Source of the DNA: Actinomyces massiliensis 4401292
Lineage (GTDB): Bacteria > Actinomycetota > Actinomycetes > Actinomycetales > Actinomycetaceae
Direction of reading: 5' to 3'
NCBI RefSeq assembly: GCF_000269805.1
Contig: NZ_JH711481.1
Span: forward strand, 1,914,102-1,978,101
DNA length: 64,000 nt
Part shown: positions 30,880 to 36,386 of the stretch, one piece after another
Numbering within the stretch: position 1 is the stretch's first letter
How the letters are laid out: each line of letters opens with the position of its first letter
Translations under genes and position numbers: made by a program
Notes under the pieces: model-generated
Seen by the model: only the letters and a program-made list of their open reading frames with translations
What the model was told of the DNA's origin: nothing
Databases searched by the model: none

Positions 30880-32244
30880 TCAGAGCAGTTCGCAGATGGC
30901 CGCCGCGGCCCGGCCCGGTCCGTCCAGGCCCTTCATGAGCACGGCCATGCGACGGGCGCGACTGCGCATCGCCTCGTCGGCCAAGGCATCGTGCACCAGG
31001 GCGGGCCAGTTCACGGTGCCGGCCTCCTTCTGGCTCACCAGCCGGGCCGATCCGAAAGCGACGCACCGCTGCACGTTGAAACGCTGTTCCAGCTGCAGAG
31101 GGATTCCGATGAAGGGCCATCCCTGAACGCAACTGGTTTGCACAGTTCCCTCACCGCCATGGGTGATCGCCAGGTCCACCGCATCCCCGAGGCGATTGGC
31201 CGGAAGCCAGTCGGTGACATGGATGTTCGCCGGCAGGCCCGGAACATCCTCGGGTTGCAGGTGGGACCGCACCGGCGCCAGCACCTGGCACTTGGCCTGC
31301 CCCAGCCCGCGGAGGACCTGAAGCACGAGCTCACGGTTCCCCGAAGAGCCCACGGCGAAATAGACCAGCGGCTCAGGAACCGCGGCCAGCTCGTTGACGA
31401 TCTCGGGGACCTCTCCCGGCAGCTGGGCGTAGACCGGACCGACCACCTGATGCCCTTGCGGCATGCTCACCCATGCGGGCAGCAGTTGCCGTGCCGCGGC
31501 GATGAGGTTGAGATCGGCCGTCAGAGCAGTGAACACTCCGTGGGGCAGGGCCACCCCGTTATCTCGGGCCACCTGGTAGAACGGGCGCGGTAGGGGAAAT
31601 CGCCTGCCCACCGTATGCAGCAACCGGGAGGCGGCATTGTCGAGCAGGCATTCGCCAGCGGTACGACGGGGTAGGAACCCGGTGGCGCCGACTTGCCTCG
31701 CCGCCTGAAGGTGGGCCAGGGAGTAGGCGAAGGGCCGTACGAAGACCAGGGGCACGCCCTCTGCACGCGCGGAGATGAACTGACTCGGAGTCACTCCGAT
31801 CACCACAGCGCTCGGGCGCAGGCGGCGAATCAGCTCGCGTTCGCTGGCGACCCGCTGGGTGAGCACTTTTCTGGTGAAGGGCTGACGCAGAGTGCGTCCC
31901 TGGTCGAAGGCCAGAGCTAACTTGCCCTCCTCATCACTGAGGTGGGGGAGGAGAAGGTGGAATTCGAAACCGGCCGCCCGAATATGCTCGGAGTTGCGCG
32001 GTGAGAAGCCTGCGAATACGCACTCCACATCAGCGGGCATGCGCCGGGCCACTTCGATGGCGCGTGTGACCTCTGCAAAGTTGAAGGTTTCCGGGGCGAA
32101 GAGCACACATGGTCTTTCGCCGGATTCGAGGGGCCCGCCAGGGCTGTTGAATTCGGAGCGCTCGTTCCCCGTACTCTCCGCGGCCGACTCACTGCATTGT
32201 GTCGGAAGGTGATGATTCGGCGGAGGTGTGGGCGTACGGTTCAT
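30880..32244 (-). CDS. GT1/UGT-type glycosyltransferase
   Basis: Cytoplasmic GT-B fold glycosyltransferase of 454 residues. After a low-complexity N-terminus of about 45 residues comes CVLFAPETFNFAEVTRAIEVARRM. The C-terminal nucleotide-sugar domain has YFAVGSSGNRELVLQVLRGL, NIHVTDWLPANRLGDAVDLAITHGGEGTVQ and GWPFIGIPLQLEQRFN. The HGGxGT and P...Q elements are typical of UGT-like enzymes acting on lipids or small molecules. It is a single gene with a leaderless promoter and 11-bp direct repeats at the -35 region. The acceptor is unknown. An apparent much longer antisense reading across the ABC gene is a shadow. Confidence 0.82.
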   Translation of the reverse strand: MNRTPTPPPNHHLPTQCSESAAESTGNERSEFNSPGGPLESGERPCVLFAPETFNFAEVTRAIEVARRMPADVECVFAGFSPRNSEHIRAAGFEFHLLLPHLSDEEGKLALAFDQGRTLRQPFTRKVLTQRVASERELIRRLRPSAVVIGVTPSQFISARAEGVPLVFVRPFAYSLAHLQAARQVGATGFLPRRTAGECLLDNAASRLLHTVGRRFPLPRPFYQVARDNGVALPHGVFTALTADLNLIAAARQLLPAWVSMPQGHQVVGPVYAQLPGEVPEIVNELAAVPEPLVYFAVGSSGNRELVLQVLRGLGQAKCQVLAPVRSHLQPEDVPGLPANIHVTDWLPANRLGDAVDLAITHGGEGTVQTSCVQGWPFIGIPLQLEQRFNVQRCVAFGSARLVSQKEAGTVNWPALVHDALADEAMRSRARRMAVLMKGLDGPGRAAAAICELL

Positions 32245-32251
32245 GTGACTG

Positions 32252-32257
32252 AGCCTA
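32252..32257 (-). promoter_or_regulatory. -10 box of leaderless GT1 gene promoter
   Basis: TAGGCT on the minus strand ends seven bases before ATG 32244. Confidence 0.55.
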
Positions 32258-32301
32258 CAGCTGACCTGCAGCTGATCTGCAGCCGATCTGCAGCCGGGCA
32301 G
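32258..32301. repeat. 11-bp direct repeats at the GT1 promoter
   Basis: CAGCTGACCTG (32258-32268), CAGCTGATCTG (32269-32279) and CAGCCGATCTG (32280-32290) follow without gaps, and a weaker fourth copy ends at 32301. The unit is one helical turn and covers the -35 region directly next to the -10 box, as in sites bound by OmpR- or SARP-type activators. Confidence 0.7.
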
Positions 32302-32433
32302 GCTGATCGGGTACACGGCGGACAACCCGCATCGAAGCGGGATCTGAACGATCGGAATGACTCGTGCATGACTCGTGCCGGCCCCTCGTCTCAACCAGCG
32401 GGCACTTCTTGGGTCTGCGTGTGACAGCGGTGT

Positions 32434-32439
32434 TATTGT
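32434..32439 (+). promoter_or_regulatory. Probable -10 box of the ABC importer operon
   Basis: TATTGT with a weak -35 TTGGGT (32409-32414). A start near 32446 gives a leader of about 140 bases that contains the Cys-rich leader peptide. Confidence 0.4.
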
Positions 32440-32505
32440 CCTCGCGTTGCAGGGCGGCCCCGGAGTCCTCGGGAGCCGCGATCGAATGAGCACAGGAGGA
32501 ATGCG

Positions 32506-32541
32506 ATGCGCATGTGGATGTGTTGCTGTCAGTGTCGTTGA
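32506..32541 (+). CDS. Cys-rich leader peptide (cysteine-responsive attenuator uORF)
   Basis: An 11-residue ORF reading MRMWMCCCQCR, with four Cys codons in the last six and a strong ribosome-binding site AGGAGGA (32494-32500) five bases before the ATG. It ends 45 bases before the ABC ATPase gene. Short poly-cysteine uORFs are known in mycobacteria and other actinobacteria: stalling at Cys codons when Cys-tRNA is scarce frees the downstream ribosome-binding site. GTGTC/GACAC (32532-32546) can fold over the end of this ORF, and CCTC just after it is complementary to the GAGG before the ABC gene. The mechanism here is inferred. Confidence 0.72.
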   Translation: MRMWMCCCQCR

Positions 32542-32575
32542 GACACCTCTGCACCCATCCAACCCCCTGACCGAG

Positions 32576-32588
32576 ACGAGGTCCTCGT
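32576..32588 (+). promoter_or_regulatory. Hairpin sequestering the ABC ATPase gene start
   Basis: ACGAG (32576-32580) pairs with CTCGT (32584-32588), hiding part of the GAGG ribosome-binding site and the first two bases of GTG 32587. It fits a translational switch controlled by the upstream Cys-rich leader peptide. Confidence 0.5.
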
Positions 32589-33432
32589 GTCCGCTCCCGC
32601 ATCCTCCTCCGACTTCCCCGAGCAGCCCACCGGCAGTGCCGACGGCGCAAACAGCGCAGGCGATGTCAGTGATGTCAACGACGTCAGCAACGACGCCCGC
32701 CCCCTGGTGCGCATTGATCACGTGAGCAAGTACTACGGCGACTTCAAAGCGCTCGACGACGTCTCGCTCGACATCCATCCCGGCCAGGTCGTAGCCGTCA
32801 TCGGGGCCTCCGGCTCGGGCAAGTCCACTCTGTGCCGCACCATCAACCGCCTGGAGACGATCCAGGAGGGCTCGATAGAGATCGACGGCGAGCTCCTTCC
32901 GGAGGAGGGTCGGGATCTGACCCGCTTGCGCGCCGAGGTCGGCATGGTCTTCCAGTCCTTCAATCTCTTCCCGCACCGCACGGTGCTGGACAACATCACG
33001 CTCGCCCCGATCAAGGTTCGCGGCATCTCCCGCAGCGAGGCGGAGGCGACTGCGCGCAGCCTCCTGGAGCGGGTCGGCCTGGCCGATCAGGCGGACAAGC
33101 GCCCGCCCCAGCTGTCCGGCGGCCAGCAGCAGCGCGTGGCGATTGCCCGTGCCCTGGCCATGGATCCCAAGATCATGCTCTTCGATGAGCCCACATCCGC
33201 CCTCGACCCGGAGATGATCACCGAGGTCCTCGACGTCATCAAGGGCTTGGCTGCGGAGGGGATGACCATGCTCGTGGTCACCCATGAGATGGGTTTCGCC
33301 CGCTCTGTGGCCGACCGCGTCGTGTTCATGGACTCCGGCCAGATCGTCGAGTCCGGCGCGCCGTCCGAGTTCTTCGCCGCTCCCACCACTGACCGGGCCC
33401 GCGACTTCCTGTCCAAGGTACTGAGCCATTGA
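32587..33432 (+). CDS. Polar amino acid ABC transporter, ATP-binding protein (GluA-like)
   Basis: Cytoplasmic ATPase of 281 residues driving an importer made with the next three genes. After a 40-residue Ser/Asp-rich extension: [22 protein letters not shown], Walker [10 protein letters not shown], signature [15 protein letters not shown], Walker [14 protein letters not shown], and the H-loop [19 protein letters not shown] 32587 has GAGG five bases upstream inside a small hairpin. Gene order ATPase, binding protein, permease, permease matches gluABCD of corynebacteria. The Cys-rich leader peptide instead suggests cysteine or cystine as substrate (inference). Confidence 0.93.
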
Positions 33433-33603: not shown

Positions 33604-34638
33604 ATGACGACTCTTTCGCGCCGCGCACTGCTGTCCGCCACCGGTGCCGTCTCCCTGACGGCGATTCTGGCCGCATGTGCCGACACAGGCGCTGATGGGC
33701 AGGCCGTCTCAGGCGGCGGGGACGCCGACTACGACACGGTCATCAACTCGGGCCCGGTCGCTGCAGCCGACGTCGTGGCCGCCTCGAGCTGGGCTTCGGC
33801 GATCAAGGAGGCCGGTGTTCTCAAGACCGGCGGGACGAAGACCGCGGCGGTCTTCTCCTCGGAGGATGCGACCACCGGCAAGGTCACCGGGTTCGACGCC
33901 GCCATCGCCCAGACCCTGGCCCGCTACATCATCGGCGGCGATGATGCCCGTGCGCTGCTGGACATCACACAGGTCACATCGGACACCCGTGAGACCACGC
34001 TCGAGAACGGCAGCGTGCAGGCCGTGATCGCCACCTACTCGATCACCCCCGAGCGCGCTCAGAAGATCGATTATGCGGGCCCCTATTACTCCTCCGGTCA
34101 GGCAGTGCTCGTACGGGATGACGAGGACAGAATCACCGGCGTGGGCGACCTGGCGGGCGTCAAGGTCGCCGTCCAGTCCGGTTCCTCCTCGGTCACGGCG
34201 CTAAATAAAGCGGCCCCCGAGGCTCAGCAGGTTCCGTTCGATGACCAGCCTGCCTGCCTCAATGGGCTCAAGACCAAGCAAGTCGATGCCTACGTTGTTG
34301 ACTACACCCTTCTGCTCAGTGCGCTCCAGTCCAATGAGGGCCTCAAGATTGTGGGGGACCCCTTCACGGAGGACCCCTACGGCATCGGCCTGCCCCATAA
34401 GTCGGACGCCAAGGCCTTCGTCGATACGTTCCTCCAGACGATCTACGACGACGGCACCTGGGCATCCATCTGGAAGGCAACCATTGGCGCGGTAGCAGGC
34501 GGAGACGCCCCCGAACCGCCCGCTATCGGTTCGGTGCCCGGCTCGGAGACCGATGGCGCCTCGGCGCCTGCGGGTCAGGATGATTCCGGGTCGGGCGACA
34601 GCAGTTCCGCCGAGGCATCCGCCTCACCGGCCGCCTGA
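33604..34638 (+). CDS. Amino acid ABC transporter substrate-binding lipoprotein (GluB-like)
   Basis: Surface lipoprotein of 344 residues. LSRRALLSATG is a twin-arginine motif and ILAAC a lipobox, so it is probably Tat-exported and lipid-anchored. The family 3 solute-binding fold follows: TGFDAAIAQTLARYI, VQAVIATYSITPERAQKIDYAGPYYSSGQAVLV and GVKVAVQSGSSS. It ends in a Ser/Gly/Ala/Pro tail from about residue 300. AAAGGAA precedes the ATG. Homology is to glutamate-type binding proteins; the leader peptide argues for a sulfur amino acid, and ligand identity is open. Confidence 0.9.
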   Translation: MTTLSRRALLSATGAVSLTAILAACADTGADGQAVSGGGDADYDTVINSGPVAAADVVAASSWASAIKEAGVLKTGGTKTAAVFSSEDATTGKVTGFDAAIAQTLARYIIGGDDARALLDITQVTSDTRETTLENGSVQAVIATYSITPERAQKIDYAGPYYSSGQAVLVRDDEDRITGVGDLAGVKVAVQSGSSSVTALNKAAPEAQQVPFDDQPACLNGLKTKQVDAYVVDYTLLLSALQSNEGLKIVGDPFTEDPYGIGLPHKSDAKAFVDTFLQTIYDDGTWASIWKATIGAVAGGDAPEPPAIGSVPGSETDGASAPAGQDDSGSGDSSSAEASASPAA

Positions 34639-34701: not shown

Positions 34702-35358
34702 ATGTCAGTGATTGCGCACAACCTCGGAGCCATCGGGGCCGGTCTGGGGACCACCCTCGTCATCGCCCTACTCGCCTACGCCGGCGCGCTCCTTGCCGGC
34801 ACGCTCATCGCCGTGTGCCGCGTCAGCCCGATACCGCCCCTGCGGGCTGTGAGCACCGTGTGGGTGACGCTCGCCTGCAATATCCCGACCCTGTGCCTCA
34901 TGATCCTGCTGGCCTTCGCCGCGCCGCAGGCGGGTGTCCACTTCTCCCTGTTCGCCGCGGCGGTGAGCGCGATCCTCTTCGCCGGTTCCGGGTTCGTGTG
35001 CGAGGCGGTCCGCTCGGGCATCAACTCCGTCGCCAAGGGGCAGATCGAGGCGGCCAGAGCTTTGGGAATGCCTTTCGGGCTCATTATCCGCGCAGTCGTG
35101 CTTCCCCAGGCCCTGGCTCGCACCGTCCAGCCGCTTGTCAATATCTTCATCGCCTGCCTCATCGGCTCGGCTCTGGCTGCAACCATCGGGGTGCGCGAGC
35201 TCACCAGCGTCACCCAGCAGCTCAATTTGCAATCCGGGGAGGCCGTTCTCATGTTCCTGCTGTCGGGTCTGATCTATCTTGCGCTGGCTTTCGGCGCGGC
35301 GAAGCTCGGCGGTCTGCTTGAACACCGTCTGGCAGATGGACGGGGGGTACGAGCATGA
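34702..35358 (+). CDS. Amino acid ABC transporter permease (GluC-like)
   Basis: Membrane permease of 218 residues with about five hydrophobic segments. It carries the HisM-type EAA loop, here EAVRSGINSVAKGQIEAARALGMPFG, which contacts the ATPase. A 63-bp gap separates it from the binding-protein gene, and its stop overlaps the next permease start (ATGA). It forms a heterodimer with the following permease. Confidence 0.92.
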   Translation: MSVIAHNLGAIGAGLGTTLVIALLAYAGALLAGTLIAVCRVSPIPPLRAVSTVWVTLACNIPTLCLMILLAFAAPQAGVHFSLFAAAVSAILFAGSGFVCEAVRSGINSVAKGQIEAARALGMPFGLIIRAVVLPQALARTVQPLVNIFIACLIGSALAATIGVRELTSVTQQLNLQSGEAVLMFLLSGLIYLALAFGAAKLGGLLEHRLADGRGVRA

Positions 35359-36269
35359 GCGCTGCACCAAGTTCCATCGGCGGTTCCATCGGCGGTTCCA
35401 TCGGCGGTTCCATCGGCGGCACCATCCGCACGTTGAGAAGCGCCCGCCCGGGGCGGGCGACGGACGCTGATCTCCTCTTCGATGCTCCCGGTCCCAGGGG
35501 GCGACGGCGCATCACCATCATCTCCGGCGTCGTCACTCTTCTGGCGGTGGTGCTGATCGCCGCAGCGCTCTACCAGCTCGCCCGCGAAGACCAGCTCGCC
35601 TATCCCAAATGGCGCTACTTCCTGGGGCAGTCGATTGTGATCTTCCTGGGTAAGGCGCTGGGGAGCACTTTGGCCGTGACAGCGGTGTCTGCGCTCATCT
35701 CCTTCCCCCTGGGCATTCTTCTGGGCTGGGCGAGGCTGGGGGCCGGCCTGGTCGGTCGGACGATCGTGGGGCTGTGGATCGACATGATGCGCGCCGTTCC
35801 CATGCTGCTGCTCATCTACTTCTTCCTGCTGGCCGTACCCCGCTTCGGTCCCACCCTGCCGGCGTTCTGGATGCTCACCATTCCCATCGTCATGTGCACC
35901 TCGGCGACGACGGCGGAGGTCTTCCGCTCCGGGGTCCTGGCGCTGGACAAGGGGCAGACCGAGGCGGCTCAGGCCCTGGGGCTGAGCCGATGGCGGACCA
36001 TGCGCTTCATTCTTGCGCCGCAGGCCCTGCGGCTCATGCTGCCGACTCTCCTCACCCAGCTCGTGACGATTCTCAAGGACTCCTCACTGGGATATGCCGT
36101 CTCCTACGCCGAACTCATGTACGCCGGGAAGGTCCTCATCGCCAGCACCGCGAGCAACTACAACCTTGACATCTACGTGCCCACCTACATCATCATCGCG
36201 TTGCTCTACGTGATCATGAACTGGTCCCTGGGCGCGCTGGCCCGCAACATTGAGGCGCGCACTCGCTAA
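35355..36269 (+). CDS. Amino acid ABC transporter permease (GluD-like) with Gly-Ser repeat N-terminus
   Basis: Second permease of the importer, 304 residues with about five membrane segments and the EAA loop EVFRSGVLALDKGQTEAAQALGLSRWR. The N-terminus holds a SIGG repeat encoded by a perfect 12-bp minisatellite (about 35371-35418, four units), which can change length without a frameshift. The cytoplasmic N-terminal stretch is longer than usual. Last gene of the operon; the 22-bp repeat array follows its stop. Confidence 0.92.
   Translation: MSAAPSSIGGSIGGSIGGSIGGTIRTLRSARPGRATDADLLFDAPGPRGRRRITIISGVVTLLAVVLIAAALYQLAREDQLAYPKWRYFLGQSIVIFLGKALGSTLAVTAVSALISFPLGILLGWARLGAGLVGRTIVGLWIDMMRAVPMLLLIYFFLLAVPRFGPTLPAFWMLTIPIVMCTSATTAEVFRSGVLALDKGQTEAAQALGLSRWRTMRFILAPQALRLMLPTLLTQLVTILKDSSLGYAVSYAELMYAGKVLIASTASNYNLDIYVPTYIIIALLYVIMNWSLGALARNIEARTR
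35371..35418 (+). repeat. 12-bp coding minisatellite in the second permease gene
   Basis: GTTCCATCGGCG repeats four times in tandem, encoding SIGG units in the cytoplasmic N-terminus. Slippage would add or remove four residues. Confidence 0.85.
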
Positions 36270-36276
36270 TGCCCCC

Positions 36277-36386
36277 GAGATCGGTCGAGTTCCGCATCGA
36301 GATCGGTAGCAATCCGTGCCGAGATCGGTCCGCTTCCGCGTCGAGATCGGTCGAGTTCCGCGTCGAGATCGGTTCGGCTACGTGCG
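36277..36386 (+). repeat. 22-bp tandem repeat array, locus 3 (5 units)
   Basis: Units at 36277-36298, 36299-36320, 36321-36342 and 36343-36364, plus a fifth partial unit from 36365 that runs over the stop codon of the convergent MFS gene. All are exactly 22 bp and start GAGATCGGT. The first and fourth differ at only one base. This is the longest of three arrays in the window. Confidence 0.95.

Follow-up and report, generated by a model that had tools for sequence, protein, structure and literature searches.

A cysteine-codon leader with an overlapping conserved hairpin precedes two unrelated importer operons in Actinomyces

A short cysteine-rich reading frame ahead of an ABC importer

We analysed a window of 64,000 nucleotides (the whole stretch of DNA considered here) from a 3.37-Mb genome of the genus Actinomyces. 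At 32506–32541 on the forward strand lies an upstream open reading frame (uORF), ATG CGC ATG TGG ATG TGT TGC TGT CAG TGT CGT TGA, which encodes MRMWMCCCQCR. Its Shine–Dalgarno sequence, AGGAGG, occupies 32494–32499 (+), its Cys codons are at 32521–32529 and 32533–32535, and the run ends close to the stop codon (CCCQCR, then the stop). Everything that a sequence-only reading of this DNA had said of a strong ribosome-binding site and four Cys codons just before the stop holds. Such ORFs, defined as led by a Shine–Dalgarno sequence, at most 30 codons long and with at least four Cys among the last 12, are expected by chance at 0.01 per 64 kb, as judged from 100 first-order Markov simulations of the window.

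Forty-five nucleotides separate the uORF from the GTG start codon (32587–32589) of an ATPase gene, and this interval contains the motifs CCTC (32546–32549) and GAGG (32578–32581). The ATPase (32587–33432), assigned by family searches to ABC importers of the polar amino-acid uptake type, is followed on the same forward strand by a substrate-binding lipoprotein (SBP_bac_3, 33604–34638; family, sequence and fold searches) and by two BPD_transp_1 permeases from family searches (34702–35358 and 35355–36269), of which the second overlaps the first. With ABC_tran, SBP_bac_3 and two BPD_transp_1 permeases in one operon, this is a polar amino-acid uptake ABC importer, and HEQRo_perm_3TM scores above its cut-off in both permeases. 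Towards its end the lipoprotein becomes low in complexity (34537–34635), with many Ser, Ala, Gly and acidic residues, and its residues 312–344 are unstructured in the predicted model (pLDDT below 50). Early in permease 2, 4.1 copies of a 12-bp unit, GTTCCATCGGCG (35371–35419), code for SIGG repeats, and a 22-bp tandem repeat, CGAGATCGGTCGAGTTCCGCGT, present in 4.5 copies (36276–36373), directly follows the operon.

Upstream of the leader, clade-wise alignments reveal a block common to relatives, TGNTANNGT, and point to a weak candidate −10 element, TATTGT after TG (32434–32439, +); a consensus promoter scan matched no promoter for the leader. In an Rfam search of 32150–33000 nothing rose above chance; the one match, to P10, had E 0.61 and 16 bits versus 37. 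There is no intrinsic terminator-like site in 32200–32750 and no U-tract terminator in the leader; because an intrinsic terminator is absent between leader peptide and gene, we rejected a classical transcription attenuator of the trp type.

The Cys run is conserved within the genus

The sequence-only reading had staked its claim on close relatives keeping the Cys codons, and they do: the Cys-run uORF is present at 35 of 42 orthologous Actinomyces loci, own genome counted. Orthologues were taken as the best ATPase match of at least 73% identity, found in 42 of the 49 genus genomes searched (30 loci, all but L023 with the uORF, and 12 fetched stretches, six with it). Seven orthologues have no Cys-run uORF (L023, L031, L032, L033, L034, L036 and L038), and none was found in eight stretches upstream of paralogous ATPases (63–69% identity). 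Counted from the last Met, the peptides end in MCCCCCR (15), MCCCRCR (5), MCCCSCR (4), MCCCCCH (3), MCCCQCR (2) or one of six singletons, and their N termini vary (MRMWM, VVMRM, MTKRM, MLATRM). A Shine–Dalgarno-like run, matched by a lenient pattern, precedes the uORF in all 35 uORF-bearing importer leaders, which argues against a leaderless start.

Two of the orthologous importers without the Cys-run uORF (L031 and L032, genomes G025 and G011) stand behind a different Shine–Dalgarno-led uORF with two Cys codons, MSALTRRCRGCRLHH and MSTAMSTPTRRCRGCRLHR. Both genomes carry a poly-Cys leader before another operon, of the Opp/Dpp type, instead of before the amino-acid importer.

A strict pattern, CCCxC(R/H)-stop, gave 40 matches in 37 of the 49 Actinomyces genomes versus one match for the reversed pattern. 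The other 389 genomes of the order gave 20 matches, in 18 genomes, versus 28 reversed-pattern matches; the enrichment is therefore specific to the genus, as it rises above the control in Actinomyces and not elsewhere in the order. Twenty family-level stretches, collected through binding-protein matches, contained no convincing Cys uORF (the ATPase start was not located in five of them, where a search for the Walker A motif found none), and one ORF, in L051, looks like chance. A further 50 stretches included 18 from Actinomyces; 11 of the remaining 32 were read, and among these a Trueperella stretch proved to be a cysK leader, four Mycobacterium stretches were judged non-leaders (three lie across one HTH-like frame) and no leader was seen in the other six. 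A looser pattern, CCxC(R/H)-stop, matched only the importer leader in the own genome; it omits TAG stops and so missed that genome's cysK leader, described below. One 21-mer, TGTTGTTGCCGGTGTCGATGA, is shared without change by six genomes that span four families of the order (G242, G377, G422, G328, G512 and G345), where it probably sits inside a conserved gene, in another frame.

The same element precedes a second importer operon, and cysK has Cys-rich uORFs

Thirty-two of the strict-pattern matches in the genus are at the amino-acid importer and eight are before an Opp/Dpp-type operon, which encodes an OppC/DppC-like permease, a DppB-like permease and an SBP_bac_5 lipoprotein. A covariance-model search (see below) adds 16 Opp/Dpp leaders with Cys-rich variants such as MLATRMCCCCR, MAKRMWSCCCR and MTKRMRCRCCR. 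The leader element thus precedes this operon, which is unrelated to the amino-acid importer, in 24 of 49 genomes; family searches were run on the operon of one genome (L212), and the remaining ones were identified from reading frames, above all that of the first permease.

The cysK family (TIGR01139) was matched in all 49 genus genomes, above the cut-off in 47. A Cys-rich uORF led by a Shine–Dalgarno sequence lies upstream of cysK at 29 of the 30 loci examined (the exception is L208), compared with none or one in 30 for each of four control stretches at a threshold of three Cys. In the own genome this uORF, MMSNGVMREMSSCCQCCECR, lies well upstream: 374 nt separate its end from the first residue matched. 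A Trueperella metagenome-assembled genome has MMMTAPMCCCECR (MCCCECR) before cysK, and the same bases are present in two genomes of genus g26.

Most of eight aligned Opp/Dpp leaders (L211–L218) have a palindrome, TGAGA-N6-TCTC(A/T), upstream, roughly 35–55 nt upstream of a block, TGCTANNGT. The half-site GTCTCA is found upstream of the importer leaders L001–L003, L008, L012 and L013. We take the palindrome to resemble the box of the sulphur regulator McbR, TAGAC-N6-GTCTA, and on that likeness a protein regulator may act on these leaders as well.

The substrate is argued from the leader and its company

The importer shares its ATPase, SBP_bac_3 protein and two HEQRo-type permeases with known polar amino-acid uptake systems of the Glu, Gln, cystine and ectoine types. 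Unlike those named importers, none of its four proteins reaches an equivalog cut-off among the NCBIfam families listed for them (for the ATPase, the best 25 of 190). The cystine equivalogs all score below their cut-offs: 295.8 of 406 bits for the ATPase (TcyN), 86.4 of 312 for the binding protein, and 96.5 and 81.4 of 300 for the permeases. By sequence and by fold E-value, from a predicted model with a mean pLDDT of 74.5, the binding protein is nearest to GlnH of Mycobacterium tuberculosis, a Glu binder of Enterococcus faecium, ancestral binders and PEB1. Cys-binding (2yjp and 1xt8) and cystine-binding (3zsf) proteins stand at ranks 19 to 39 of the fold list; among them the open-form cystine receptor 3zsf superposes best, with a TM-score of 0.80 by target length that may reflect the open form of our model. 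We rejected an assignment of the substrate from the fold, since the matches are mixed amino-acid binders, and neither family nor fold singles out a substrate.

The claim that the importer takes up cysteine or cystine rather than glutamate rests on the leader and its company. A cysteine-sensing leader and a cysteine- or cystine-type substrate are favoured because the uORF is kept at 35 of 42 importers, because cysK has Cys-rich uORFs and because the same element stands before a second importer operon. Against that part of the sequence-only reading are the nearness of the binding protein to Glu, Asp and Gln binders and scores far below the cystine cut-offs. The same facts would suit a cysteine-sensing uORF in front of an importer for something else (Glu, Gln or Asp, or a mixture) that the cell takes up in connection with cysteine stress. 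We regard this as unlikely, if the best of the alternatives: Cys and cystine binders are also among the fold matches, the same leader precedes a peptide importer and Cys-rich uORFs precede cysK. Cysteine, cystine or a related sulphur compound is most likely what the importer brings in.

A hairpin that overlaps the uORF is kept by paired base changes

A recurrent hairpin appears in most, not all, of the minimum-energy folds of 29 leaders. Its outer stem, P1 (32515–32561, +), pairs UGGAUG within the uORF (32515–32520) with CAUCCA in the noncoding RNA after the stop (32556–32561); across leaders, the codons before the Cys run (GCGGAUG, UGGAUG, GCGAAUG) face matching post-stop sequences (CAUCCGC, CAUCCA, CAUUCGC). 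The inner stem, P3 (32532–32546, +), joins GUGUC (32532–32536) to GACAC (32542–32546), with the uORF stop in its loop.

We aligned 24 leaders to this structure and found that 96.1% of cells pair and that 15 cells are changed on both sides, with a covariation score that none of 500 shuffles reached. Extending the alignment to 54 distinct leaders (of 59) left 95.8% of cells paired, with 32 cells changed on both sides and a covariation score of 0.246; shuffled alignments gave 0.173, none of 500 reaching the real score, and slid registers no more than 0.083. One pair of P1 is A-U in 31 and G-C in 18 of the 54, and one pair of P3 is CG in 47, GC in 6 and UG in 1. The hairpin was named after viewing these leader sequences and the alignment was fitted to it, so the pairing counts lean towards the hairpin. 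Pairs with double changes number four, with no excess over shuffles (219 of 500 as high). Coding constraint cannot explain the 3′ arms of P1 and P3, because these arms are noncoding. Pairing in the hairpin is kept through paired base changes across the 59 leaders.

A covariance model built from the 24 leaders recovers these 59 among 76 loci at E up to 0.01. All have E up to 1.1e-4 and are either importer (35) or Opp/Dpp (24) leaders, 24 of the 59 having built the model; two weak matches follow, G024:C1:519964 and G007:C1:922893, with E of 0.04 and 0.05. At E up to 0.01 the model matches none of the uORF-less orthologues or paralogues, nor the own cysK leader or the Trueperella leader. RNAalifold, run on the whole alignment, recovers P3 and not P1, whose 3′ arms stand in different registers. 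Of 12 single leaders compared with shuffles, some are notably stable (L007, z −3.8; L215, z −4.0); the own-genome sequence is not unusually so (z −1.14).

The start site is not distinctive, and stalling is predicted to open it in most importer leaders

The sequence-only reading had placed the ribosome-binding site and GTG of the ATPase gene inside a small hairpin, ACGAG-GTC-CTCGT (32576–32588, +). The sequence is as described, but the palindrome recurs in only 23 of 35 leaders, and the energy needed to open the start site has medians of 8.7, 8.3 and 8.9 kcal/mol for 35 uORF-bearing orthologues, seven uORF-less orthologues and eight paralogues, respectively, the paralogue starts having been chosen by a crude rule. 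Since the three groups are alike, the hairpin is not a hallmark of this operon. A switch in which CCTC beside the uORF stop pairs with GAGG, also proposed, has both motifs in place, but CCTC lies within 14 nt of the stop in only five of 35 leaders and we rejected it. We found no single anti-sequestor common to all leaders. Cysteine-sensing control by the poly-Cys uORF, the centre of that reading, is favoured by the conserved Cys run, the cysK uORFs and the second-operon copy, whereas the CCTC–GAGG switch and the special start hairpin fall away from it.

Opening of the 30S site (−18 to +15) is predicted to cost a median of 14.1 kcal/mol in free importer leaders, 12.1 with a ribosome stalled on the Cys codons and 14.6 with one terminating. 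Stalling lowers the cost in 26 of 35 importer leaders (a drop larger than 0.5) and raises it in three; a permutation test gave 0 of 5,000 by a statistic that ignores clade kinship. The own genome is one of the three that rise (13.9 free, 19.0 stalled), opposite to the expected direction. Eight of the 24 Opp/Dpp leaders were calculated: four fall and two rise on stalling, and the median goes from 14.75 to 15.9. For the stretch from the Shine–Dalgarno sequence to the start alone, the stalling shift is small, from 8.0 to about 7.1.

Folding also brought to notice, post hoc, a possible long-range pairing, P0 (32505–32603, +), in which 32505–32510 meets 32598–32603 and 32514–32519 meets 32589–32594, joining the start region of the uORF to codons 1–6 of the ATPase gene. 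For the own genome it is the best of 25 windows, and one of 200 shuffles is as good. P0 pairs strongly in the own genome and in the group of A. oris and A. naeslundii (L001, L002 and most of L011–L025) and to an intermediate degree in L008, L013, L016, L027 and L042; in the majority of the remaining importer leaders, and in Opp/Dpp leaders, it is weak or missing, with z near zero or positive in L004, L006, L007, L009, L010, L028–L030, L035, L037, L040 and L041. The mean z against shuffles is −1.2 for the 35 importer leaders and +0.5 for eight Opp/Dpp leaders. These clade-specific scores led us to reject P0 as a universal feature.

A proposed model for control by stalled ribosomes

We put the probability at about three in four that this is a cysteine-responsive, ribosome-stalling leader of an importer operon and that the importer serves cysteine, cystine or a related sulphur compound. 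Ribosomes would initiate on the uORF at its strong Shine–Dalgarno sequence. With Cys-tRNA charged, they would run on to the stop and be released, leaving the leader RNA to refold: uORF codons 4–5 would pair just downstream (P1), the stop region would close on itself (P3) and, in the own genome, the uORF start could also pair with the first ATPase codons (P0), keeping importer expression low. A shortage of Cys-tRNA would hold a ribosome at the Cys codons, where it would mask the 5′ arms of all three pairings and let the importer be made. P1 and P3 each have their 5′ arm inside the uORF, so that both stems should be excluded while a ribosome occupies the Cys codons and allowed once it has left. 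The most likely outcome is that the leader turns the importer up when cysteine is short.

The evidence for the sensor is good; that for the output step is not. Translation attenuators work by a uORF that frees a start site when its ribosome stalls. Our proposal shares that logic with attenuators of the stall type; here, however, the alternative pairing that would free the start is inconsistent between clades. The same sensor could instead act through Rho, with a finished uORF exposing C-rich RNA to the factor, a stalled ribosome preventing this and the hairpin serving timing or RNA stability. Start-site release that is clear in some clades and not all, together with the lack of a U-tract terminator, would fit such an output, and Rho was suggested for mycobacterial cys leaders because these have no conserved hairpins that could be terminators (PMC1262725, in the part drawn on here). 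The Actinomyces leaders do have a conserved hairpin, and no rut site can be called from their sequence; we consider Rho improbable, and a shade more so than a different substrate.

Relation to known poly-Cys leaders

Canestrari et al. 2020 (doi 10.1111/mmi.14498) reportedly described polycysteine leaderless short ORFs of mycobacteria before cysteine-related operons. Cys-rich leader peptides were predicted in 2005 for the cys operons of Mycobacterium and P. acnes and for cbs of B. longum (PMC1262725). The part of that study drawn on here has A. naeslundii in its genome list and names no A. naeslundii Cys leader and no importer. Like those candidates, as that part presents them, the Actinomyces leaders are short actinobacterial ORFs with Cys-codon runs near the stop; unlike the mycobacterial ones, they have a conserved hairpin. 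Contiguous Cys codons in leaderless short ORFs of M. smegmatis control downstream genes by cysteine-dependent attenuation, according to the portions consulted of PMC9031893 and PMC13236596, the latter of which terms the mechanism translation attenuation. A Cys-codon run in a short uORF, with cysteine-dependent ribosome speed as the proposed sensor, is common to both (PMC9031893, PMC9094748 and PMC13236596, as excerpted). The mycobacterial ORFs in these excerpts are leaderless, whereas the Actinomyces ones have a conserved Shine–Dalgarno sequence and 9–11 residues, precede importers and overlap a conserved hairpin.

Our search of the literature on actinobacterial cysteine leader peptides, polycysteine ORFs and Actinomyces found no report of the Actinomyces leader. 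Poly-Cys leaders before actinobacterial cys genes are known; the Shine–Dalgarno-led form, the conserved hairpin and the position before importers are new here. As far as can be told, the principle is the same.

Discussion

Two further explanations fare far worse. The 11-residue peptide itself might act, for example as a CCCxC metal or thiol peptide, and its Cys residues are conserved, but its N-terminal residues vary while the RNA hairpin persists and it is located ahead of transport and cysK genes, which makes this very improbable. Chance or inherited sequence with no regulatory role, for which the close kinship of leaders within clades might speak, is just as hard to credit given the pattern enrichment, the covariation, the simulation, the cysK control counts and the presence of the element at two unrelated operons.

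Cysteine-responsive stalling on the leader is thus our preferred reading. A broader one, which we hold tentatively and at slightly less than even odds, is that a Cys-codon uORF set in a conserved hairpin is a portable riboregulator specific to the genus, placed before two unrelated importer operons. Together with the cysK uORFs it would form a ribosome-read regulon that ties cysteine scavenging to synthesis, and it would single out, among uncharacterised importers, those for sulphur amino acids or for peptides that contain Cys.

The RNA structure of the leader is directly testable. Predicting from sequence what an ABC importer carries is difficult, and a leader that reads cysteine is an independent clue. 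On its evidence, two Actinomyces importer families are likely to scavenge sulphur. Poly-Cys leaders, so far linked to cysteine genes in mycobacteria and a few further actinobacteria, now extend to another family and, within it, to nutrient importers.
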